IMG/VR virus record: IMGVR_UViG_3300020596_000281
Span: 1 to 21,714 of that record
Strand: one strand, 5' to 3'
Length of the DNA stretch: 21,714 nucleotides
DNA from: a virus
Within the stretch, counting starts at the first letter, position 1. The number at the start of each line of letters is the position of its first letter. Made by a program: the position numbers and the translations under genes. Of the stretch, positions 5,614 to 21,714 are shown one piece after another. The notes under the pieces are model-generated. The model ran no database searches, was not told the DNA's origin, and saw only the letters and a program-made list of their open reading frames with translations.

Positions 5614-6948
5614 ATGGAAATAAAACAATTGAACGATACTGAGAACCCTGAATCCCTGAATATTGCAATGGGCAAACAAAACAAGATTGATGCCAATCTC
5701 GAAAAGCAATGGGACGAATACCTCGAAGATGAAAAGGACTCGGAACCAGTTGTGGTTGATGAGGCCAAGATGATTGCACGTATCATTAAGGAACTATCCA
5801 ATGTTTCCTCAATGACCGTAGAAGAATATACCCTTTATCAAAAGTGGTGTGAAGTTCATGAGAAATACCCTGCTTCGGAATCTGTAAATCTTTTAGGCAA
5901 GCGGCCACTCTTAAATCATGATCAAATATTGGCCATTGAACATGTTAAACGCAATATCTGGTACCCCGAAACACCAGACGATTATCTTAAGCTACAACCC
6001 GAACTAATATATACCGAGAACAGTTTTGGTGCTATTGAGAACTTCCCCGGACCAGAACTGTGGAATGCTATCCGCACATTTTCGTCCACAATGAAAAACA
6101 ATAATAACATTGGCCGAAACCTAAATTTCATTGTGCAAGATAAAGTTTCAAAGAAGTATCTTGGTACTATTTGTATTTCATCTGATTTCCTTGACTTAAC
6201 GCCACGCGATAAGTTCATAGGCTGGAGCCGAGAGATAAAGACACAAGGTCATATGATTAACCACACCGCAATTGGTTCAACAATTGTGCCGTTGCAGCCC
6301 TTGGGCTTCAACTATGTGGGCGGCAAACTTTTGGCCTTGCTATGTCTTTCGGATACCGTGCAAGAGGAATGGAAGAGGCAATATAAAGACGTTCTGGTAG
6401 GTGTAACCACCACAAGTCTGTACGGCTCCTTTTCCCAGTACCAAAACCTAAAACATTGGCATAAGCGCGGCCATTCTTCTGGTTCAGTGTCTTATGAACC
6501 TATGAAGGAAACAATTTACCTGATCCGGGACTGGCTCAAGTTGAATTACCCCCGCAAATACTTTGAATGGTATGTGGCAACAAAGACAACAGGTCAGCCA
6601 TATAAGCGTGACCATCGCAACAGATCGTTGACCTTTGCATATTCTAAATTGAAGATTCCAAAGGACTTACAGAGGTCAAAACATGAACGTGGCATTTATT
6701 TCTCGGCCTTGTATGATAATTCAAAGGAATTCTTACGCAAGGAAATTACCGAGGAAACATTGGTTAAGTCCTTTGATACGAAAACTGAAACCCTTGTTCA
6801 ACTCTGGAAAGATAAGTACGCAGGAAAGCGCATTAATGCTTTGCTGGCGGACAACAGAACCAATTTTGAAACATTATACTACGATGATCTCATATATATG
6901 GATTGGGAAGAAACTAAGAATAAATATCTAGCCGAAGTGGGAAGATAA
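5614..6948 (+). CDS. DUF4338 / DruA-like protein
   Basis: A 444-residue protein. I recognise features I associate with the DUF4338 family, to which DruA of the Druantia anti-phage system belongs: a segment NLNFIVQDKVSKKYLG (about 169-184), GTICISSDFL, R198-DKFIGWS, then IVPLQPLGFNYVGGKLLALL and the signature T265-TTSLYG. The last third is rich in K, R and aromatic residues (HWHKRGHSSGS; QPYKRDHRNRSL), consistent with nucleic-acid binding. The N-terminal 60 residues are charged and low in complexity. It has its own promoter and is followed by a strong terminator, so it is expressed separately from the 46/47 operon, probably early. Biochemical function is unknown to me; the family link is from memory of motif pattern and needs a profile search. 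ATG 5614 is preceded by AAAGGAA at a longer than usual distance (5597-5603). Confidence 0.7.
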   Translation: MEIKQLNDTENPESLNIAMGKQNKIDANLEKQWDEYLEDEKDSEPVVVDEAKMIARIIKELSNVSSMTVEEYTLYQKWCEVHEKYPASESVNLLGKRPLLNHDQILAIEHVKRNIWYPETPDDYLKLQPELIYTENSFGAIENFPGPELWNAIRTFSSTMKNNNNIGRNLNFIVQDKVSKKYLGTICISSDFLDLTPRDKFIGWSREIKTQGHMINHTAIGSTIVPLQPLGFNYVGGKLLALLCLSDTVQEEWKRQYKDVLVGVTTTSLYGSFSQYQNLKHWHKRGHSSGSVSYEPMKETIYLIRDWLKLNYPRKYFEWYVATKTTGQPYKRDHRNRSLTFAYSKLKIPKDLQRSKHERGIYFSALYDNSKEFLRKEITEETLVKSFDTKTETLVQLWKDKYAGKRINALLADNRTNFETLYYDDLIYMDWEETKNKYLAEVGR

Positions 6949-7026: not shown

Positions 7027-7185
7027 ATGGAGGGTGCGTCGGAATGTCACACTTGTAATTCCACAATTAGTTCTTATATGGAGTGTATGAGACAGTTTAC
7101 TATTGAGACAGAAAACAGCTATGCTTTCCATGCATGTCTGCTATGTCTTTTTGTGTATAGTATAAACCAATTTAATCTGATATAA
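7027..7185 (+). CDS. Possible 52-residue CxxC peptide
   Basis: Small open frame in the about 200-base gap between the terminator and the CobT-like gene. It has two metal-ligand-like pairs: C7-H-T-C10 near the N-terminus and H35-A-C37-L-L-C40, spaced like a small zinc ribbon. The C-terminus is hydrophobic (CLLCLFVYSINQF). There is no clear ribosome site before ATG 7027; a later in-frame ATG at 7078 is an alternative but would lose the first cysteine pair. The stop overlaps the -10 box of the following promoter. No family recognised. It may be a chance frame in a leader region; the paired CxxC motifs are the only reason to list it. Confidence 0.35.
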   Translation: MEGASECHTCNSTISSYMECMRQFTIETENSYAFHACLLCLFVYSINQFNLI

Positions 7186-7214: not shown

Positions 7215-9683
7215 ATGACCTTTGACGTAAACCGCGCCACGACTGTTAAATCCCAACTTGCGAAATTGCTTGCTTCGGAAAACATTAGTATTAGGCACGT
7301 AATGGGAACGGCAACAGCGAGCTTTGATGTTAAGGCTCGCATTTTGCGTTTGCCCGTTTGGACAGGCATCTCCGAAGATTTGTACGATATGCTGGTAGTC
7401 CATGAGGTCGGCCATGCCCTTTATACCCCGGCAGATTTGTGGATAACAGAATTGGAGAGACTTGCGGAAAAGCATAATCCGAAGCCGGGAAATGACCGGG
7501 CCCTGGCGAAAACTCGGGAATCAATTCATAGTTTTTGTAACATTGTGGAGGACGTGCGCGTTGATATTATGCAACGCAAGCGTTACCCCGGTTCAAAACG
7601 AAATTACGTTATAGGCTATAAGGACTTGTTTGATCGGGACTTTTTCCGGACAAGCAAAATGCCAATTCCTGATATGTCTTTCATCAATCGTCTTAATATT
7701 TACAGCAAGGCCGGCTTTTCGGGTATTGTAATTCCGTTCACGGACGAGGAAAAGATTCTTGTCAAACGCACCCAGGAAACCGTAACTTTTGAGGACGTAA
7801 TTGCACTAGCCGAGGAACTGTGGCTTGCTAAGTTGCACGAGGCCGAGAATTCCGAAGGCGAAGAAAATCAGCCAAGTAAGGGTGAAAAATCAGAAGATGA
7901 TTCCGAAGGCGAAGGCCAGGAATCAGAAGATGATTCCGAAGGCGAAGGCCAGGAATCAGAAGATGATTCCGAAGGCGAAGGCCAGGAATCAGAAGATGAT
8001 TCCGAAGGTGAAGGCGAAGGCGAAGAAAATCAGCCAAGCAAGGGCGAAAAATCAGAAGATGATTCCGAAGGCGAAGGCGCCAGTGACAATTCTGACGATT
8101 CTTTAATTCCGCCCGAGGCTCGGGAAGCTATGACTGCCGAAAAGGCCGATGCCCTAGAGAAATCAGAAAAGAATGAGTCCGTCAATCAGGCAAAGCGGCC
8201 GGATGGCCACTTTGGCGGCGTAGGCAGTCAGAACAAAAATCCGGAAGATTATTTACCCAAGGCTGAAACGGACGAGGCATTCCACCAGAATGTTGATAGT
8301 CTTGCTCAATCTGATGGTTGTTCTTATTATTATTCAACTATTCCGGAAGTGCGCGGCGAACCTTGGACCGATTATAAGGTTTATCTTGAGGAACACCGTA
8401 GGGCCGCTGTCGCGGAAGGCTACTCATATAATTTTGATGATCACCAGAAGTATCTTAATACTTTCAAGATTGAAGAAAATCAAGCAATCTCCTTCATGGT
8501 GAAGGAATTTGAAATGCGGAAATCTGCTTCCGCATATCAAAAATCATTGACCGCCAAAACAGGCGTTATCAATACCAATAAGTTGCATTCATACGTATTT
8601 ACCGATGATATTTTTAAGCGCAATACTGTGGTGCCCACGGGCAAAAATCACGGTTTCGTTATGTTTATTGATTGGTCTGGCTCAATGTCCAGTAATATTC
8701 TAAACACAACCCGCCAGTTACTTTCGCTTTGCTTGTTTTGTAAAAGAATTGCCGTGCCATTTGAGGTATATACCTTCACAAGTAACGGTTATGTTTCCTC
8801 ACAAAATAACGATGAAACTAAAGGTTTCGTAAAAACCTCGGAATCACTTCAACTTGATGCCGCTCACCGTATCCGTAATATTCTTTCATCTAGAATGAAA
8901 GTCCGGGAACTCAATGAGGCCATGCTTTATCTAGTAGCAATGGCCCGCACCGAGACCATGCGCCTGACGTCCGGCGTCCCGCTAGATTTTGCACCATATA
9001 GACCAGATTGTGACCGCATGAGCGGAACGCCACTCAATGAAACCATTATTATTGCTGAAAAAATTGTTAAAAAGTTTCAGCGGCAGGCCAAGATTGAAAT
9101 TACCAATGTAATTTTCTTGACCGATGGCGAAGGCGCTTCACCGGCCCTTGGTGGAAATGAATATGCCGTTAAGTCAAAGGAATATGCCATTCTTATTCAG
9201 GACCCCGTAACACGGGAAGAATATATGTTGCCTCCTGTTTCTACCCCCAAAGGCGGCCGTATATCTCCCCGCTATAGCGGCAACACCGGGTGGGATTGGA
9301 CTAATATGCTTTTAAAGGTTCTTAAGAATCGCACCAAGTGCAATCTCGTCGGTTTTTATTTGCTGGACCGCGGTTCAAATTGGAATTCTATTGTTTTTCA
9401 GGGCAAGTACTATAGTCCATCCGATGAAAGAGCTGCTCGTTCTATCTGGAAAACCACAGGATATACGCCAATCCAGAATAGTGGTTATGACGAATATTAC
9501 CTAATTTCTTCTCGTGCCATGCAACTTGATCAAGTTGACTTTGGTAAGGAAGAGGATGATTCCGGCCAAATAGTTTCAAAGGAAATGACTCACGGCAAGA
9601 TTGCCAGTGCCTTTAAAAAGCACATGGGCAAAAAAACAACTAACCGGGTTCTGTTAAGTAACTTTATTAAAAAGATCACTTGA
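7215..9683 (+). CDS. CobT-like VWA protein with HExxH motif
   Basis: An 822-residue protein. The N-terminal domain carries H63-E-V-G-H67-A-L, a zinc-metalloprotease-type HExxH, followed downstream by NIVEDVRVDIM. Residues 213-289 are an extremely acidic repetitive linker (11-residue unit SEDDSEGEGQE). The C-terminal domain is a von Willebrand A fold with a MIDAS D486-W-S488-G-S490 and a later LTDGEG. The order N-domain, acidic linker, VWA matches the CobT subunit of aerobic cobaltochelatase, and similar genes are labelled cobT in some T4-like phages. The next gene encodes the CobS-like AAA+ partner. No CobN is present here, so real cobalt insertion is unlikely; a MoxR/VWA-type remodelling complex, possibly with proteolysis, is the better inference. 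The C-terminus ends in a lysine-rich tail. Confidence 0.85.
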   Translation: MTFDVNRATTVKSQLAKLLASENISIRHVMGTATASFDVKARILRLPVWTGISEDLYDMLVVHEVGHALYTPADLWITELERLAEKHNPKPGNDRALAKTRESIHSFCNIVEDVRVDIMQRKRYPGSKRNYVIGYKDLFDRDFFRTSKMPIPDMSFINRLNIYSKAGFSGIVIPFTDEEKILVKRTQETVTFEDVIALAEELWLAKLHEAENSEGEENQPSKGEKSEDDSEGEGQESEDDSEGEGQESEDDSEGEGQESEDDSEGEGEGEENQPSKGEKSEDDSEGEGASDNSDDSLIPPEAREAMTAEKADALEKSEKNESVNQAKRPDGHFGGVGSQNKNPEDYLPKAETDEAFHQNVDSLAQSDGCSYYYSTIPEVRGEPWTDYKVYLEEHRRAAVAEGYSYNFDDHQKYLNTFKIEENQAISFMVKEFEMRKSASAYQKSLTAKTGVINTNKLHSYVFTDDIFKRNTVVPTGKNHGFVMFIDWSGSMSSNILNTTRQLLSLCLFCKRIAVPFEVYTFTSNGYVSSQNNDETKGFVKTSESLQLDAAHRIRNILSSRMKVRELNEAMLYLVAMARTETMRLTSGVPLDFAPYRPDCDRMSGTPLNETIIIAEKIVKKFQRQAKIEITNVIFLTDGEGASPALGGNEYAVKSKEYAILIQDPVTREEYMLPPVSTPKGGRISPRYSGNTGWDWTNMLLKVLKNRTKCNLVGFYLLDRGSNWNSIVFQGKYYSPSDERAARSIWKTTGYTPIQNSGYDEYYLISSRAMQLDQVDFGKEEDDSGQIVSKEMTHGKIASAFKKHMGKKTTNRVLLSNFIKKIT
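7860..8081 (+). repeat. In-frame 33-bp tandem repeats in the acidic linker
   Basis: Three perfect 33-bp copies (7890-7922, 7923-7955, 7956-7988) encode SEDDSEGEGQE, followed by partial copies from 7989 and 8052. A larger unit of about 60 bp, encoding EENQPSKGEKSEDDSEGEG, occurs at 7860-7919 and again 162 bases later at 8022-8081 with only two base differences seen. All units keep frame, so copy number can change the linker length without breaking the protein. Confidence 0.95.
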
Positions 9684-12874: not shown

Positions 12875-12906
12875 GAACCTATGAATTGAATTGGAGTGAA
12901 TTTATA

Positions 12907-13584
12907 ATGCAAGTAACGGATAAAACAATCGAAATCCTTAAGAACTTTTCCGCCATTAATAATGGCATGGTTCTGCGCAAGGGCAAACAGCAGACAACCG
13001 CATCCCCGGATGATAACATTTTTGCCGTGGCGCAGTTGGATGAATTTCCGGCTGAGTTTGGACTTTATGATCTACCAAACTTCCTGGCTAACCTATCAAT
13101 ACTCGAATCTCCTGTATTGGAATTCAATGGTAATACGGTTAAAATGACAGATAAGGATGGGTTTAATATGACCTATCGTGGCTGCGCGCCAGAAATTATT
13201 CATATACCGGCGGATGGCTTCATCAACCTCAAGATTGAAAAGCCAGATGGTGAATTGAATTTGTCCTCCGAACAATTGCAGAAGCTTATCAAGGTCGCCG
13301 CAGTCAACACGTTTGTCCACTTAACCATATTCGGCAAAGATGGCAAGCTGGCCATTAAAGTCAATGATCGTACCGCCGACACCTCAAATATCGGTGTTAT
13401 GGTACTAGGCGAACACGCCGGCGCAGACTTTGAGTCAGTGTTTAAGGTCGAGCAACTAAAGATAATCCCGCAAAATTATAACGTGAAAATCATGAAAGAT
13501 GCATATGCCATCTTTGAAACCAGTGATTGCTTGTTGAGATATGTTGTCGCTCTTGAATCTCCAACCAAGAAGAAGGTTAAGTAA
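12907..13584 (+). CDS. 45: DNA polymerase sliding clamp gp45
   Basis: A 225-residue trimeric sliding clamp (T4 gp45 has 228). It tethers the polymerase and also activates late transcription with gp55. The start ILKNFSAINNGMVLRKGK matches T4 LLKNFATINSGIMLKSG, FGLYDLPNFLANLSIL matches VAIYDLNGFLGILSL, LSSEQLQKLIKVAAVN matches the second-domain start, and the C-terminal LLRYVVALES matches ANYVVALEA. I chose ATG 12907 behind GGAG (12893-12896) rather than the in-frame upstream start at 12886, which would add MNWSEFI from the ribosome-site region. It heads an operon with the DsbA-like gene, one base after its stop. Confidence 0.95.
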   Translation: MQVTDKTIEILKNFSAINNGMVLRKGKQQTTASPDDNIFAVAQLDEFPAEFGLYDLPNFLANLSILESPVLEFNGNTVKMTDKDGFNMTYRGCAPEIIHIPADGFINLKIEKPDGELNLSSEQLQKLIKVAAVNTFVHLTIFGKDGKLAIKVNDRTADTSNIGVMVLGEHAGADFESVFKVEQLKIIPQNYNVKIMKDAYAIFETSDCLLRYVVALESPTKKKVK

Positions 13585-14228: not shown

Positions 14229-15173
14229 ATGTCGGACGCAAAAGAGTTCCTCTTTGTGGAAAAATATCGGCCACACACTGTTGATGAATGTGTATTGCCG
14301 GCTCGCATTAAGCGAGTATTCCAGGAATACGTAAACAAGAAACAAATTCCTAATATGATGCTATCTGGTGGACCTGGCGTAGGTAAAACTACGGCAGCTA
14401 TTGCCATGTGCGAAGAAATTGGTCTCAGTTACCTGATGATCAATGCTTCCCGCGAACGCGGCATCGATATTCTCCGCGTCAAGGTAATCAATTATGCATC
14501 AACCTTAAGTCTGACTGGTGGTCATAAAGTGATCATCATGGACGAAGCCGATTCACTAACACCCGATACACAGTTGGCTTTGCGTGGAACGATTGAGGAA
14601 TTCTCGTCTAATTGCACGTTTATCCTGACATGTAACTTCAAGTCTAAGCTGCTTGATGCCTTGCATTCCAGGATGCCGGACGTGGATTTCAATTTAACCA
14701 ATGACGAAAAGCAAGGAATGGCCACCGCTTTCTTCAAGAGATTGAAGGAAATTCTTATGCTTGAGGGCATAAAGTATACCGACCCCGCCCTTGTTAAGAT
14801 CATTCAAATGTATTTCCCCGATTATCGGAGAACGTTAGGTGAATTGCAGAGACTATCTATTTCTGGTTTGATTGATGAAACTATATTGGCTCAAATGTCC
14901 GATGTACGAAACATCAAAGAACTGGCCGGCTTCTTAAAGGATAAGAACTTTGGTGAAGTCCGTAAATGGGTAGTTGAGAATGGTGACGTTGATGCTACCC
15001 GTATCTTTAGAAAGATTTACGATGCATTGTATGAATATATGGTTCCCGCCGGCATTCCTATGGCAGTAATCATCATATCAAAATATCAATATCAGTCTGC
15101 TTTTGTTGCCGACCAGGAAATTAATTTAGTTGCTTGCCTGACCGAAATGATGGTCGAATGTGAGTTTAAATAA
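14229..15173 (+). CDS. 44: Clamp loader large subunit gp44
   Basis: A 314-residue AAA+ ATPase (T4 gp44 has 319) that with gp62 loads the gp45 clamp. It begins EFLFVEKYRPHTVDECVLP, matching the T4 clamp-loader start. Walker A is G47-GPGVGK-T54; Walker B is IIMD105-E-A-D108; sensor 1 is FILTCNF; the SRC-like arginine-finger segment is ALHSRMPDVDFNL; sensor 2 lies in PDYRRTLGELQRL. The C-terminal collar domain is present. ATG 14229 follows GGAGACG. The stop (TAA) shares its last A with the ATG of the next gene, so translation is coupled. Upstream lies the alternating hairpin described separately. Confidence 0.96.
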   Translation: MSDAKEFLFVEKYRPHTVDECVLPARIKRVFQEYVNKKQIPNMMLSGGPGVGKTTAAIAMCEEIGLSYLMINASRERGIDILRVKVINYASTLSLTGGHKVIIMDEADSLTPDTQLALRGTIEEFSSNCTFILTCNFKSKLLDALHSRMPDVDFNLTNDEKQGMATAFFKRLKEILMLEGIKYTDPALVKIIQMYFPDYRRTLGELQRLSISGLIDETILAQMSDVRNIKELAGFLKDKNFGEVRKWVVENGDVDATRIFRKIYDALYEYMVPAGIPMAVIIISKYQYQSAFVADQEINLVACLTEMMVECEFK

Positions 15174-16052: not shown

Positions 16053-16481
16053 ATGGCTGACCTATTTAAAGAGATAATTCCTGCAATTATGCAAACCAAA
16101 AAAGATGTTCTGGTGACCGAGGAAGATGAAAAAAGCTATGTTCCGTTCATTGTCAACAAAGCACTGTCCTTCCACCTCGACTGTGTTATGCGGGCCAATG
16201 AAATGAACATGCGCCCCGAACTTGATAAAAAGCTGCAAAATCACTACATGCTAAATACTATCAGAGGTTATAAACGACCTTTCCAGAAGTGGTATAAGCG
16301 GAAAACCGAGGAAAACATTGTTATGCTACAAGAGTATTACAATTATTCCAGTGATAAAGCAAAGGAAGCTTTGCGTGTTTTAAGCGATGACCAACTTAAT
16401 GAGATAAGAAGAATATTGAACAAAGGTGGTAGCGATGATAAACTTAAGCAGCCTGGTGTGGGTAAAGCTTCCCGACGATAA
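16053..16481 (+). CDS. 62: Clamp loader small subunit gp62
   Basis: A 142-residue protein matching the short gp62 form of cyanophage-like T4 relatives (T4 gp62 is 187). Recognisable segments are YVPFIVNKALSFHLDCVMRANEMNMRPELDKKLQNHYMLNTIRGYKRPFQKW and ALRVLSDDQLNEIR. It is the non-ATPase subunit that completes the gp44/62 loader. I chose ATG 16053 (MADLFKEI); the frame is open back to 16005 inside the preceding gene. The ribosome site is weak, and a 6-codon reading frame starting at 16021 sits between, so re-initiation is possible. Its 3' end overlaps regA by 47 bases. Confidence 0.9.
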   Translation: MADLFKEIIPAIMQTKKDVLVTEEDEKSYVPFIVNKALSFHLDCVMRANEMNMRPELDKKLQNHYMLNTIRGYKRPFQKWYKRKTEENIVMLQEYYNYSSDKAKEALRVLSDDQLNEIRRILNKGGSDDKLKQPGVGKASRR

Positions 16482-16836
16482 AGCATTCTTGAAAATCAAG
16501 GAAACACTGACTAGAATTGGCGTGGCCTCCAAGAAAGACAAAATTCTATACCAATCCTGTCACATTCTACACAAGCAAGGCCGGTACGCAATCATTCACT
16601 TTAAGGAATTGTTTTCTCTAGACGGCAAGCGGTCAGACTTCTCCGAAGAAGATAAAGCAAGGCGAAACAGCATTGCCAACCTGTTGGCCGAATGGGGACT
16701 TGTAATTCTGGAAGACCCAGAAAAAACAAAAGACCCGGTGGCCAATATGGGATTAATCAAGATTATTTCATTCACCGAGAAGGTTGAATGGCAGCTTGTA
16801 TCAAAATACAACATTGGAAAGAAAAAAACCTATTGA
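16435..16836 (+). CDS. regA: Translational repressor RegA
   Basis: A 133-residue protein (T4 RegA has 122), an RNA-binding repressor of early mRNAs including its own. Strong matches: FLKIKETLTRIGVASKKDKILYQSCHILHKQGRYAIIHFKELFSLDG to T4 FLKVKETLTRMGIANNKDKVLYQSCHILQKKGLYYIVHFKEMLRMDG, and SIANLLAEWGLV and ISFTEKVEWQLVSKYNIG to T4 SIAWLLEDWGLI and ISFKQKHEWKLVPKYTIG. I prefer ATG 16435, behind AAAGGTGG; the in-frame GTG at 16426 lies inside that ribosome site. The start is embedded in the 3' end of gene 62. In T4 gene 43 follows regA; here a dUTPase gene follows. Confidence 0.95.
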   Translation: MINLSSLVWVKLPDDKAFLKIKETLTRIGVASKKDKILYQSCHILHKQGRYAIIHFKELFSLDGKRSDFSEEDKARRNSIANLLAEWGLVILEDPEKTKDPVANMGLIKIISFTEKVEWQLVSKYNIGKKKTY

Positions 16837-18299: not shown

Positions 18300-19213
18300 T
18301 CTTTGGAGCAATATATGATTATGAATATAAGGACGTCGAGCCTTGGTTAGTATCACTTAAGCAATCCGGCTTTATGGGCAAGGTTGCTTTAATCGTATAT
18401 CGCGGTTCACAGGAACTTATTGATAAGCTGGCCGAGCAAGGAGTACATGTTATTTGTTTTATGCGAACAGATAAAGGTTGTGATTGCGCATTTGACTTGA
18501 CCAATAAGGGCATCATGTCTATTCGTTTCCTGCATATGTGGCATTTTCTAAACAACGACCTATTCCTCAAAGACGTTACGCATGTTATTGCAACAGATGT
18601 TAAAGACGTTATATTCCAACATAATCCAGATAAATTGATTGGCGAGGGCAGCCAAATCGTGGTTGGTCTTGAGGGCTTTACATACGATGTAGAGCCATGG
18701 TCAAAGGCAAATATGAAAACATCCTTTGGTGACGAAATTCTTGAAATGATGAGAGAGGTTCCCATTGTCTGCGCCGGTGTTATCGTTGGCGAAAAACACA
18801 CAATATCAAATTTATTCAATCAAGTATACATACTAACAGAAGGCTCAAAGTATCCAGATAGAGTTCCTGGCGGCGGCGGCCCAGATCAATCAGCATTAAA
18901 CATTGCGCTTACTGCTCCACCATGGAAAGATTTAGTTAAACATACCGAAAGTATCCTTCATGTCGGCACTTCCATGGAATGCATTGCTACTGGCCGCGGC
19001 GCCATTGGCGAATCGGTATTCAGACCAGACGGTAATCCTCGACAAGCATATGATTATTACACATCAAAGATGCTATTGAAATCCAGGCCTCGTATTGAAA
19101 CCGATGGTTACGTGTTTGATGATGACCGTATTGTTGGTGAATATGTGATTATTCACCAATATGACCGAATGAAGCCATGGAAAGATAGCATAACAACAAG
19201 ATATAAGGAATAA
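18281..19213 (+). CDS. Glycosyltransferase-like protein (TDxxDVxFQ family)
   Basis: A 310-residue protein. HVIATD106-VKD109-VIFQHNPD is a DxxD-type metal motif I associate with GT-A enzymes whose active site reads TDxxDVxFQ, in eukaryotes and some phages. The N-terminus PLVFGAIYDYEYKDVEPWLVSLKQSGFMGKVALIVY is an alpha/beta start; a Gly-rich PGGGGPDQSALNIAL follows late in the protein, a common acceptor/nucleotide motif (PDQ). The start is TTG 18281 with GGAG at 18270-18273; it overlaps the preceding gene by 19 bases. The exact family number is uncertain. The donor could be GDP-mannose given the phosphomannomutase elsewhere in the window, but this is speculation. Confidence 0.8.
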   Translation: MDRIPLVFGAIYDYEYKDVEPWLVSLKQSGFMGKVALIVYRGSQELIDKLAEQGVHVICFMRTDKGCDCAFDLTNKGIMSIRFLHMWHFLNNDLFLKDVTHVIATDVKDVIFQHNPDKLIGEGSQIVVGLEGFTYDVEPWSKANMKTSFGDEILEMMREVPIVCAGVIVGEKHTISNLFNQVYILTEGSKYPDRVPGGGGPDQSALNIALTAPPWKDLVKHTESILHVGTSMECIATGRGAIGESVFRPDGNPRQAYDYYTSKMLLKSRPRIETDGYVFDDDRIVGEYVIIHQYDRMKPWKDSITTRYKE

Positions 19214-19214
19214 C

Positions 19215-19823
19215 ATGTTTAGTGAAATTGATTATATGACAGTTGCCGATCACAAAGAAAATGACGATTGGCCGTTTGATTGGCTACCAGTGAAAGGTCT
19301 GATTCCTTATATCAAGAGATTAGGACCAGAAACCGTGGGTGTTGAAATTGGTGTGGCCCGAGGCGAAAGTTCTTATGCAATCCTTGAAGCCTGTTCAAAC
19401 GTTTCAATGTTATTTGGCATTGACCCATATGTTGCTTATGATGATTGGAACGGACCAGTAGATCAAGAGCATAATGATAAAACAAAAGAAATAGCCATAA
19501 CAAATATGGAACCATTCAAAGATCGTTTTGTTTCCTTGTTTGGACTCACGTCCAAAGTGGTTATTCATAGCCAAGATTGCCAGCCGGGGTTTGATTTCGG
19601 AACTCTTGGATTTGTATTCATTGATGGTGATCATTCCTATGAAGGAGCCAAATGGGATATGCAAAATTATTATAGCTTTGTCCGTCCAGGCGGTATATTT
19701 TCTGGTCATGATTATAATCTTAAAACAGTGAGAACCGCGTTGGAAGAATTCAGGGCCGAAAACAAAATTCGTTTACCGGTACAAGTCGTGGATAATAACG
19801 CCTGGTTCTGGACGGTTTTTTAG
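19215..19823 (+). CDS. Class I SAM-dependent methyltransferase (Methyltransf_24-like)
   Basis: A 202-residue Rossmann methyltransferase. Motif I is GVEIGVARGESSYAIL (about 42-57), followed by FGIDPY (motif II acidic end), LGFVFIDGDHSYEGAKWDMQNYYSFVRPGGIFSGHDY (motifs IV-VI), a signature of small-molecule or sugar methyltransferases that occur in glycan clusters. One base separates it from the previous stop, with AAGGAATAAC as ribosome site. Likely methylates a sugar in the product of the neighbouring glycosyltransferases; this is inferred from position. No DNA-methylase motif (DPPY/NPPY) is present. Confidence 0.87.
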   Translation: MFSEIDYMTVADHKENDDWPFDWLPVKGLIPYIKRLGPETVGVEIGVARGESSYAILEACSNVSMLFGIDPYVAYDDWNGPVDQEHNDKTKEIAITNMEPFKDRFVSLFGLTSKVVIHSQDCQPGFDFGTLGFVFIDGDHSYEGAKWDMQNYYSFVRPGGIFSGHDYNLKTVRTALEEFRAENKIRLPVQVVDNNAWFWTVF

Positions 19824-19836
19824 AGGAAACAAAATT

Positions 19837-20403
19837 ATGAGCATTAGAATTATCGATAGTCACCTAAGCCTCGATTACCTTAAGCAGTATAAAAAGGGCG
19901 ATATTTTTATCGAAACGGGAACCTATCGGGGCGATACAATTTATATCGCCCTTGAAGCGGGGTTCGAGCAAATTTATTCATGTGAGATATACCGACCACT
20001 TTATCTTGATGCCGTGGAATTGTACAAAGAAAACAAATCAATTACAATTGATGAATTGGAATCTCCAGAATTTATTGCAACGAGATTGACTTACCTTGGT
20101 CAAATTTTCGATAAAGATGTTGAATGTACCTTCTGGTTAGATGCTCACGCATCTGGACCTTTGGGTGGTGGTAAGTCGGTTGGTTCGCCTGTATTGGATG
20201 AATTGAAAGCCATCCGCGATAATTCAAGTTGCAAAACGCATACAATCCTTATTGATGATAAGCGTTTGTTTGGGTGCGATGAATGGGGCGGCGTAACAGA
20301 AGAAGAAGCCATGACAATTCTGAAAGAAATCAACCCGAATTATAAGATTGCATACCTAGATGGTGTAATCGAAAAGGATATAATATGCGCGTATATCAAT
20401 TGA
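19837..20403 (+). CDS. Methyltransferase-like Rossmann protein
   Basis: A 188-residue protein with a degenerate SAM-binding start: GDIFIETGTYRGDTIYIALEAGFEQIYSCEIYRPLYLDA, where ETGTYRGDT takes the place of motif I and CEI the ribose-binding acidic strand end. Later FWLDAHASGP and SPVLDELKAI are typical of a family of phage and bacterial proteins near glycan genes. IDDKRLFGCDEWGG may be a substrate loop. It is preceded by GAGGAAAC and 13 bases from the previous stop. The last 19 bases overlap a tiny reading frame. Could be an FkbM-like methyltransferase; the assignment is less certain than its neighbour's. Confidence 0.78.
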   Translation: MSIRIIDSHLSLDYLKQYKKGDIFIETGTYRGDTIYIALEAGFEQIYSCEIYRPLYLDAVELYKENKSITIDELESPEFIATRLTYLGQIFDKDVECTFWLDAHASGPLGGGKSVGSPVLDELKAIRDNSSCKTHTILIDDKRLFGCDEWGGVTEEEAMTILKEINPNYKIAYLDGVIEKDIICAYIN

Positions 20404-20459
20404 GTTATCAGAACCGCCGCGCCATGATTGCAGCACCACAGGAGCCAAAGCCATGTTAG
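20385..20459 (+). CDS. Possible 24-residue peptide
   Basis: MRVYQLSYQNRRAMIAAPQEPKPC. ATG 20385 has a good AAGGA at 20374-20378, inside the end of the preceding gene, and the stop lies just beyond the next ATG (20453). Its final QEPKP is encoded by the shared 18-nt start element read in another frame. It may be a leader that couples translation to the next gene rather than a functional protein. Confidence 0.35.
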   Translation: MRVYQLSYQNRRAMIAAPQEPKPC

Positions 20460-20545
20460 AAGTTGCAATTACATTTTGCGTTATAGTTTGCCTCTTAGTG
20501 TTGCTGAAATGGTGGCACGATGTTGGTATTGGTCCCGGGCGATGA
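20453..20545 (+). CDS. Small single-pass membrane peptide
   Basis: A 30-residue peptide behind the first copy of the shared start element. Residues 4-19 (VAITFCVIVCLLVLLK) form one hydrophobic helix, followed by KWWHDVGIGPGR, a tryptophan-flanked interface and polar tail. Likely inserted in the inner membrane with the tail in the cytoplasm by the positive-inside rule, though short. Small membrane peptides of phages often act in lysis control or superinfection exclusion; nothing here says which. Too short for database motifs, but start element and hydrophobicity make it credible. Confidence 0.6.
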   Translation: MLEVAITFCVIVCLLVLLKWWHDVGIGPGR

Positions 20546-20685
20546 CATGACACCATGCAGGGCAACAAATGATGTGGACATGCAATCTACCGCCGGGACA
20601 TAGAGGCCCGTGCAAATCGGGACGCTGGCCTAGTTTCAGGCTTTTGTTGTCTCTTTTCTTCCGCACTCACACAGGAGCCAAAGCC

Positions 20686-20847
20686 ATGACACTTGAGGAT
20701 GCAATTACTATCTGGTTGGCGTTCGCTGACGATCCAGACATCAGCGACGAGGAGCAAGAACTTGTTGATGAGGCTCGCCAAATTATTTGGAAGCGTGGTT
20801 GTGCGCTGCGGAAAATCCGCAGAGACGCCATTATTGATGATGCATAA
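20686..20847 (+). CDS. Small acidic protein, 53 residues
   Basis: Begins MTLEDAITIWLAFADD behind the second copy of the start element. It is helical and acidic at the N-terminus (DDPDISDEEQELVDEAR) and basic at the C-terminus (KRGCALRKIRRDAIID). No family recognised. The frame is also open upstream to ATG 20569, and that extension reads WTCNLPPGHRGPCKSGRW, a Cys/Gly/Pro pattern I have seen in small phage and actinobacterial proteins, then a hydrophobic run and the start element itself in frame (THTGAKAM). The longer 92-residue form is possible and its ATG pair has a modest AGGG upstream; I favour the short form because of the conserved start element. Confidence 0.65.
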   Translation: MTLEDAITIWLAFADDPDISDEEQELVDEARQIIWKRGCALRKIRRDAIIDDA

Positions 20848-20870
20848 CAACCCACACAGGAGCCAAAGCC

Positions 20871-21083
20871 ATGAGCCGCGATGAGGACAAGAAAATTGCC
20901 GAAAGCATGGGTTGGCGCGTGAGCTTTGACCCTTGGTGGAACTGGAACAAGATGGACGATCCTCCGGGATTCTATTTTAATCCACCCGGTGATGAATGGT
21001 GCGTTCGTAAGGATGGCCGCAATGATCTTCCTTGCAATGAGGCATTGCCACAATTTTCAACGAAAACAGAAGGAAACGCATAG
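20871..21083 (+). CDS. Small hypothetical protein, 70 residues
   Basis: Starts behind the third copy of the start element, 23 bases after the previous stop. Residues 14-45 are rich in aromatic and proline residues (GWRVSFDPWWNWNKMDDPPGFYFNPPGDEWCVRKDG), suggesting a small beta domain. It has two cysteines, no membrane segment, and no family I recognise. Accessory early phage gene is the likely class. Confidence 0.75.
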   Translation: MSRDEDKKIAESMGWRVSFDPWWNWNKMDDPPGFYFNPPGDEWCVRKDGRNDLPCNEALPQFSTKTEGNA

Positions 21084-21085
21084 CC

Positions 21086-21238
21086 ATGACACACCCATTT
21101 GATGAGGTTGCACTTGATGCGGCACGGGAGGCTTTTATGTACGACAACGAGGAAGATATTGAGGTCGCATTTGAAGCAGCGTGGGCTTCGCTAATGGAGC
21201 GGGGCTTGGTAGAACTCAAACAGGAGCCAAAGCCATGA
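21086..21238 (+). CDS. Small acidic protein, 50 residues
   Basis: Begins MTHPFDEVALDAAREAFMYDNEEDIEVAFEAAWASLMERG, an amphipathic acidic helical protein, two bases after the previous stop and with a degenerate start element. The last residues KQEPKP are encoded by the fourth copy of the shared start element, and the stop overlaps the next ATG (ATGA), so translation of the last gene is coupled. No family recognised. Confidence 0.7.
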   Translation: MTHPFDEVALDAAREAFMYDNEEDIEVAFEAAWASLMERGLVELKQEPKP

Positions 21239-21714
21239 AACTAATCGCATATCACAACGATCAGTCCATCAAGAACGCAGTCTTGTTGCAGCTTCAAGCG
21301 CACTATGACGCGGATGAAATAGTTAAAGGTCAGTATTGGGAAGAAGGCAAAGGTTGCGCCGTGGGATGCGCAATCCATTCCAACAATCACATGGATTATG
21401 AGAAGCTTTTCGGTATCCATGTCACCTTGGCCCGCCTTGAAGATACGATCTTCGAGGGTTTACGACATGACATTGCAAAAGAGTGGCCCATTCGCTTTAT
21501 GACGGCCATTCAGCCGGGTATGGATTTATCCCTCGTAAGCTGGAAGTTTTTATATTGGATGCTGACCGATGAGGAGGTCAATCCGGGCATTAACCACCCA
21601 CTGGTGAAGGATGCGGTTGCGCAGGCCGCGCAAGTAATCTGCTCCATTTCTAAAGGCGATATGCCAAATATAGAAACGGCGGAATCGGCGGAATCGGCGT
21701 GTAAGGTGGCGAGG
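21235..21714 (+). CDS. Conserved hypothetical protein, 3' cut by window edge
   Basis: Open from ATG 21235 to the last base without a stop (160 codons seen). A central Cys/Gly/His block GQYWEEGKGCAVGCAIHSNNH (residues about 34-54) is followed by YEKLFGIHVTLARLEDTIFEGL and WPIRFMTAIQPGMDLSLVSWKFLYWMLTD. I remember this kind of GKGCAVGC protein as a widespread hypothetical family in alpha-proteobacteria and their phages, with no known function; this is memory, not a search. Two cysteines and two histidines could bind metal. The visible end becomes repetitive (ETAESAESA), where a short tandem GGCGGAATC occurs. Confidence 0.8.
   Translation, partial: MKLIAYHNDQSIKNAVLLQLQAHYDADEIVKGQYWEEGKGCAVGCAIHSNNHMDYEKLFGIHVTLARLEDTIFEGLRHDIAKEWPIRFMTAIQPGMDLSLVSWKFLYWMLTDEEVNPGINHPLVKDAVAQAAQVICSISKGDMPNIETAESAESACKVAR

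Follow-up and report, generated by a model that had tools for sequence, protein, structure and literature searches.

A repeated SAS-type start element, and probable gene joint, in the accessory region of a T4-like phage

SAS elements have been known since 2011 and, in the portions of the reports available here, have been described from actinobacteriophages and one Felix O1-like phage. In the cluster K mycobacteriophages, the SAS is a short asymmetric repeat with the consensus GGGATAGGAGCCC, which contains AGGAG(CC), lies immediately upstream of the starts of unrelated non-structural genes in one orientation, and is conserved beyond the bases that pair with rRNA, its function being putative (Pope et al. 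2011, PMC3203893). About half of the SAS sites have paired 17-bp inverted repeats, termed ESAS, a short distance upstream. According to a 2025 survey, a role of the cluster K SAS in transcription or translation awaits experimental verification (PMC12699233). The accessible part of a report on the Microbacterium cluster EF phages describes approximately 10 repeats, GGGAAAGGACCCC, that occupy the position of the ribosome-binding site (RBS) and are far better conserved than ordinary RBSs (PMC7302621). In one arm of the Citrobacter phage Mordin, a Felix O1-like myophage of a Gram-negative host, eight hypothetical genes carry a 26-bp SAS-like repeat, CCAACAATCCTAAACTGGAGAATCTA, at their starts (PMC4611695).

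The DNA analyzed here (the window) is the complete IMG/VR record IMGVR_UViG_3300020596_000281, a linear fragment of 21,714 bases. T4-type genes fill its core, upstream of an island of small genes, and the fragment shows no structural genes. The best relatives of its clamp loader protein gp44 are 67% identical in IMG/VR and at most 57% identical among named phages, which places the phage in a distant T4-like lineage. The features referred to in the text are given below, with L246 denoting a second contig that is described further on.

1306-2043, late sigma factor gp55, T4-type core gene
Core, upstream of the island, gp47- and gp46-like subunits
Within 12886-13584, sliding clamp, T4-type core gene
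14229-15173, clamp loader gp44, T4-type core gene
Core, upstream of the island, gp62 and dUTPase
16426-16836, RegA, encoded in the core
20404-21714, no strand assigned, small-gene island, G+C 50% versus 41% in the T4-like core
20438-20455, plus strand, element copy 1, followed by T and so without an ATGA overlap
20453-20545, plus strand, small ORF 1, 30 aa, hydrophobic, MLEVAITFCVIVCLLVLLKWW..., no family match
20671-20688, plus strand, element copy 2, followed by A (ATGA)
20686-20847, plus strand, small ORF 2, 53 aa, MTLEDAITIW..., no family or phage match
20825-20874, plus strand, 50-nt piece, 82% identical to L246:5584-5633 (seam b)
20856-20873, plus strand, element copy 3, with an in-frame remnant upstream that reads TAA-QPTQEPKP-stop
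20871-21083, plus strand, small ORF 3, 70 aa, MSRDEDKKIAES..., no family or phage match
21086-21238, plus strand, small ORF, 50 aa, between copies 3 and 4 and without the element at its start
21220-21237, plus strand, element copy 4, whose ATG shares bases with the TGA that terminates the upstream ORF (ATGA)
21235-21714, plus strand, gene of the 'IAYHND' family, running off the contig end, 78% amino acid identity to L246:6205-6963

The G+C content is 49.8% from position 20400 to the end and 40.8% in the rest of the window, where the richest stretch of equal length sampled reached 46.5%. An earlier note on this DNA had called the region richer in G+C than the core from counts in single 60-base lines (30 of 60 and 24 of 60), and those counts were right. 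Elsewhere in the window, a 33-nt tandem repeat (7855-8082) lies within an 822-aa ORF (7215-9683) and encodes an acidic Glu/Ser/Asp repeat linker.

The same note had pointed to 15 identical bases plus ATG in front of genes without protein similarity, with identity ending at the ATG, and both observations were borne out. The sequence ACAGGAGCCAAAGCC-ATG, that is, the 18-mer ACAGGAGCCAAAGCCATG, occurs in four exact copies, all on the plus strand and each ending in a start codon. Pairwise identity among the copies is 100% from -15 to -1 but 26% from +4 to +33 and 24 to 29% upstream of -15, so that the flanks are at chance level on both sides; a few additional upstream bases, CACACAGGAG, are common to some of the copies. 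The four products (30, 53, 70, and at least 160 aa) showed no similarity when compared among themselves. The copies are thus not the result of tandem gene duplication, which is ruled out by the chance-level flanks and the unrelated proteins. Within the window the element stands at starts only: it is confined to the island, is absent from the core starts, and has no further copies even when up to three mismatches are allowed. Each copy has the layout of a complete ribosome-binding start, consisting of AGGAG, an 8-nt spacer, and ATG, often followed by A. The start of the ORF at 21086-21238 is preceded instead by AAGGAAACGCATAGCC-ATG, which has only ...AGCCATGAC in common with the element. No DNA match to positions 19200 to 21714 and no protein match for ORF 2, ORF 3, or the ORF at 21086-21238 was found in named phage records. 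ORF 2 could start further upstream, because a longer in-frame ORF of 92 aa (20569-20847, MMWTCNLPPGHRGPC...) spans copy 2.

The decisive database match for the element was contig 3300020596_000142 (L008/L246), which is 17.2 kb long and is also T4-like, encoding a ribonucleotide reductase and a T4-type RNase H with 49% identity to cyanophages. It carries four copies of the element (with 0, 0, 2, and 3 mismatches) before consecutive small genes within 1.4 kb, in an island with a G+C content of 52% versus 42% elsewhere, so that in both contigs the island is richer in G+C than its surroundings. At one junction, similarity between the two contigs sets in at the element, and at another it ceases there. 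At the first (seam a), window positions 21217 to 21659 match L246 positions 6187 to 6629 with 82% identity over 445 nt that comprise the 'IAYHND' gene and its element; the homologous stretch begins 3 nt ahead of the element (21217/6187), with different genes upstream. At the second (seam b), the 50-nt piece consists of the tail of the preceding region and the element and stops immediately past the start codon of copy 3 (20874/5633), beyond which the genes differ; 22 of its nucleotides are the element and flank, and the other 28 match at 24 positions. The order of genes between copies differs between the window and L246, which answers a check proposed in the earlier note, and, because homology begins or ends at the element next to different neighbors, the element appears to be a recombination seam. 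This gives direct support to the proposal in the earlier note of a seam at which small genes are shuffled as cassettes, as judged by aligning one pair of contigs, the window and L246.

Other observations concern the same two contigs and the 'IAYHND' family. A 57-nt piece with 84% identity (28 bases, TGCGTCGGAATGTCACACTTGTAATTCC, being identical) is common to window 7035-7091 and L246:13572-13628 in otherwise unrelated surroundings; in L246 it ends at the start of a GIY-YIG-like ORF, and in the window it has no tRNA or Rfam match. The initial stretch of the ribonucleotide reductase ORF (L246:51-2330) resembles the end of an intein (...GGIVTGNC). Members of the 'IAYHND' family, found at window 21235-21714, L246:6205-6963, L249:8001-8645, L250:8001-8476, and 44255-44713 of the Xanthomonas phage XapPhi1 record (PP391659.1), have a conserved head (IAYHND...) and, after it, a repetitive Ala/Ser-rich tail. 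The window breaks off within this tail, several contigs and the XapPhi1 record stop inside it or close to it, and assemblies therefore seem to break there. Weak homologs occur on Roseomonas and Roseicitreum plasmids, and a search of 84,980 bacterial and archaeal genomes did not find the family.

Read in the frame in which a TGA shares bases with the ATG (ATGA), the element encodes (T)QEPKP-stop. Copy 4 is in this way the true end of the ORF at 21086-21238 (...KQEPKP-stop), and two L246 copies likewise combine stop and start, ending ...TQETKP-stop and ...TQEPKP-stop. At copies 1 to 3, the EPKP frame is open as remnants only, outside any recognizable gene; the remnants are a short frame that overlaps, an ORF lacking a start codon, or an ORF interrupted by TAA. 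Across IMG/VR, an ATGA overlap with an ORF of 40 or more codons upstream was present at 39 of 58 element-led starts, compared with 54 of 178 other GGAG-N8-ATG starts (P of about 1e-6). Relative to the parts of the published SAS reports available here, stop/start dual coding and homology seams are new.

The element shares with the cluster K SAS its position, the AGGAGCC core, the single orientation, and a putative role. One asymmetric sequence stands before the starts of unrelated genes in four plus-strand copies, and its Shine-Dalgarno core, AGGAG, is accompanied in all of them by an identical CCAAAGCC, with conservation exceeding the bases that pair with 16S rRNA. It differs from the cluster K SAS in reaching and including the ATG, in sometimes overlapping the upstream stop (clearly so at copy 4 only among the window copies), in lying mostly in short gaps, in the type of phage, and in having no paired ESAS repeat, the upstream flanks being at chance identity. 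The gaps to the preceding gene are 49, 140, 23, and -4 nt, whereas gaps of more than 50 bp are typical of SAS without being strictly defining. AGGAGCC alone is in common with the cluster K consensus, a mismatch that excludes the cluster K type but not the wider kind, because the SAS of other groups differ too (PMC7302621, PMC4611695). The cluster EF SAS is likewise a highly conserved repeat at the RBS position but has a different sequence and a linked ESAS, and the accessible part of that report mentions no seams (PMC7302621). The Mordin repeat is similar in its placement at starts and unlike the element in sequence, phage group, and size. We therefore regard the element as a real, new SAS-type element in a T4-like phage, for which the seam evidence is unusually direct and a role in translation is what we infer.

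T4-type phages are reported to have a repeat of their own, the promoter early stem-loop cassettes attributed to Arbiol et al. (2010, Genome Biol Evol 2:140), which are said to form a repeated intergenic unit in accessory regions and to mediate modular gene shuffling. The element resembles them as a repeated unit in an accessory region at which genes are shuffled, the shuffling being seen at the seams of one contig pair. The cassettes, however, are transcription units composed of an early promoter and a stem-loop, whereas the element is a translation start without a stem-loop or promoter signal. Between positions 19700 and 21714, promoter- and terminator-like sites showed no excess over shuffles for the patterns scored, unknown host promoters lying outside them.

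Among 2.9 million viral contigs (IMG/VR), 10 stretches contained the 18-mer and 70 contained the 16-mer AGGAGCCAAAGCCATG, compared with 30 for a control string with the spacer reversed, so that database-wide enrichment is modest. The reversed-spacer string is a poor control because it also reads EPKP-stop, and some of the signal across the database reflects no more than a good start whose codons are compatible. At 44 of 65 distinct element copies, the EPKP frame is the longest of those upstream. The expectation that the element always adjoins a start codon failed at this scale: matches to the 15-mer alone, without ATG, mostly do not lie at starts (of 81 inspected, 10 adjoin ATG, which still exceeds the 1 in 64 expected), and the string is thus not universally a start signal. 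Five unrelated, mostly G+C-rich contigs (L007, L100, L108, L130, and L138) contain two or three exact copies of GGAGCCAAAGCCATG, most of them before adjacent small genes. Contigs with several copies made up 7 of 70 for the element and 0 of 30 for the control, a difference that is not significant (P of about 0.1). The 20-mer ACACAGGAGCCAAAGCCATG had no match in 84,980 bacterial and archaeal genomes, and no match with up to two mismatches adjoined a start at 78 gp44-relative loci, except for three weak variants (AGCAGCC, with ORFs of at most 26 aa). An unrelated 79-kb phage contig, 3300021440_000018 (G003, the source of L007), carries at least eight copies of AAGGAGAACTGA(g)ATG between 26537 and 35262 before unrelated small genes; this repeat is SAS-like and indicates that start elements arise with different sequences.

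Several explanations other than a joint between genes can be weighed against these data. An ordinary ribosome-binding site with a normal start function could have hitchhiked with genes copied from another phage, so recently that its copies are still identical, which would make the repeat a by-product of recombination only. Such an origin would fit the foreign composition of the island, the L246 copy before the shared gene, which has drifted by 2 bases, approximately as the 18% divergence of that gene predicts, and the repetition of the same 15-mer in G+C-rich unrelated phages, which are possible donors. We nevertheless consider it rather unlikely, as the exact unit from Shine-Dalgarno sequence to ATG is retained between unrelated flanks on both sides and the element is enriched at stop/start overlaps. 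The earlier note had taken conservation as a sign of selected function; conservation does extend past AGGAG, but selection is unproven by it, because recent copying would also yield identical copies. Chance, or convergence on the best ribosome-binding site of the host, is hardly credible. The combination of AGGAG and an 8-nt spacer makes a good but ordinary start and the control string likewise occurs at starts, but the copy number already disfavors this reading, no other start in the window uses this spacer, and 100 dinucleotide shuffles of the window gave no instance of the element. Moreover, seven longer T4-like relative contigs (approximately 700 kb) contain no cluster of three or more similar start 15-mers, compared with four copies in the window.

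The element might also be a regulatory site at which a trans-acting factor, such as a RegA-like repressor, another RNA-binding protein, or a small RNA, coregulates the small genes. Conservation beyond the bases that pair with 16S rRNA is consistent with this, the phage encodes RegA, and the same argument has been made for the cluster K SAS (PMC3203893). The starts of the clamp, gp44, regA, and other core genes, which include the classical RegA targets in replication, lack the element, and RegA control is therefore unsupported. T4 RegA sites are AU-rich, and the element, unlike them, has no U before the AUG. No conserved or strong RNA fold was found at the element starts, where the predicted fold of three of the four copies is poorer than the mean of the shuffles, and the only Rfam hits in the window were two subthreshold chance matches away from the element. 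A regulatory site is accordingly improbable. From the earlier suggestion of a shared translation-control site, for instance for RegA, what stands is a plausible role at the start, given AGGAG, the 8-nt spacer, and some overlaps. Finally, the repeat could be kept for the peptide with which upstream proteins end (...QEPKP), as suggested by the EPKP frame ending the upstream ORF at copy 4 and at the L246 junctions and by its prevalence among the IMG/VR copies. At copies 1 to 3, however, that frame lies outside any recognizable gene and yet the bases, including those at wobble positions, are identical, and we consider this explanation very improbable.

Overall, the element is probably a portable joint between genes, located in the accessory part of this T4-like phage. 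With AGGAG, an 8-nt spacer, and ATG, it would supply a complete and strong translation start. At some junctions it also provides the last codons of the preceding small gene, and the overlap of stop and start there would allow the downstream gene to be translated by termination-reinitiation. Because the same 15 to 22 nt are present at every junction, recombination over this short homology could connect the end of one gene with the start of a different one, and joining at the element would leave translation unbroken. Small genes could in this way be gained, lost, or exchanged between phages, and recent copying or conversion may keep the copies nearly identical. Strong initiation, coupling, the recombination mechanism, and homogenization are steps that we infer. 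A broader possibility, which we offer tentatively, is a dual-coded, mobile cassette joint acting at the level of translation that splices tiny genes into polycistrons and has spread among unrelated phages, and that could be regarded, just as tentatively, as the translational counterpart of the T4 promoter/stem-loop cassettes.

To the SAS described previously, the element adds a T4-like example, and it suggests a concrete function for them, that of a joint that preserves translation when small accessory genes are exchanged. If true, the portable-joint reading would help account for the way in which phages build up runs of tiny accessory genes and would provide a handle for finding such runs.
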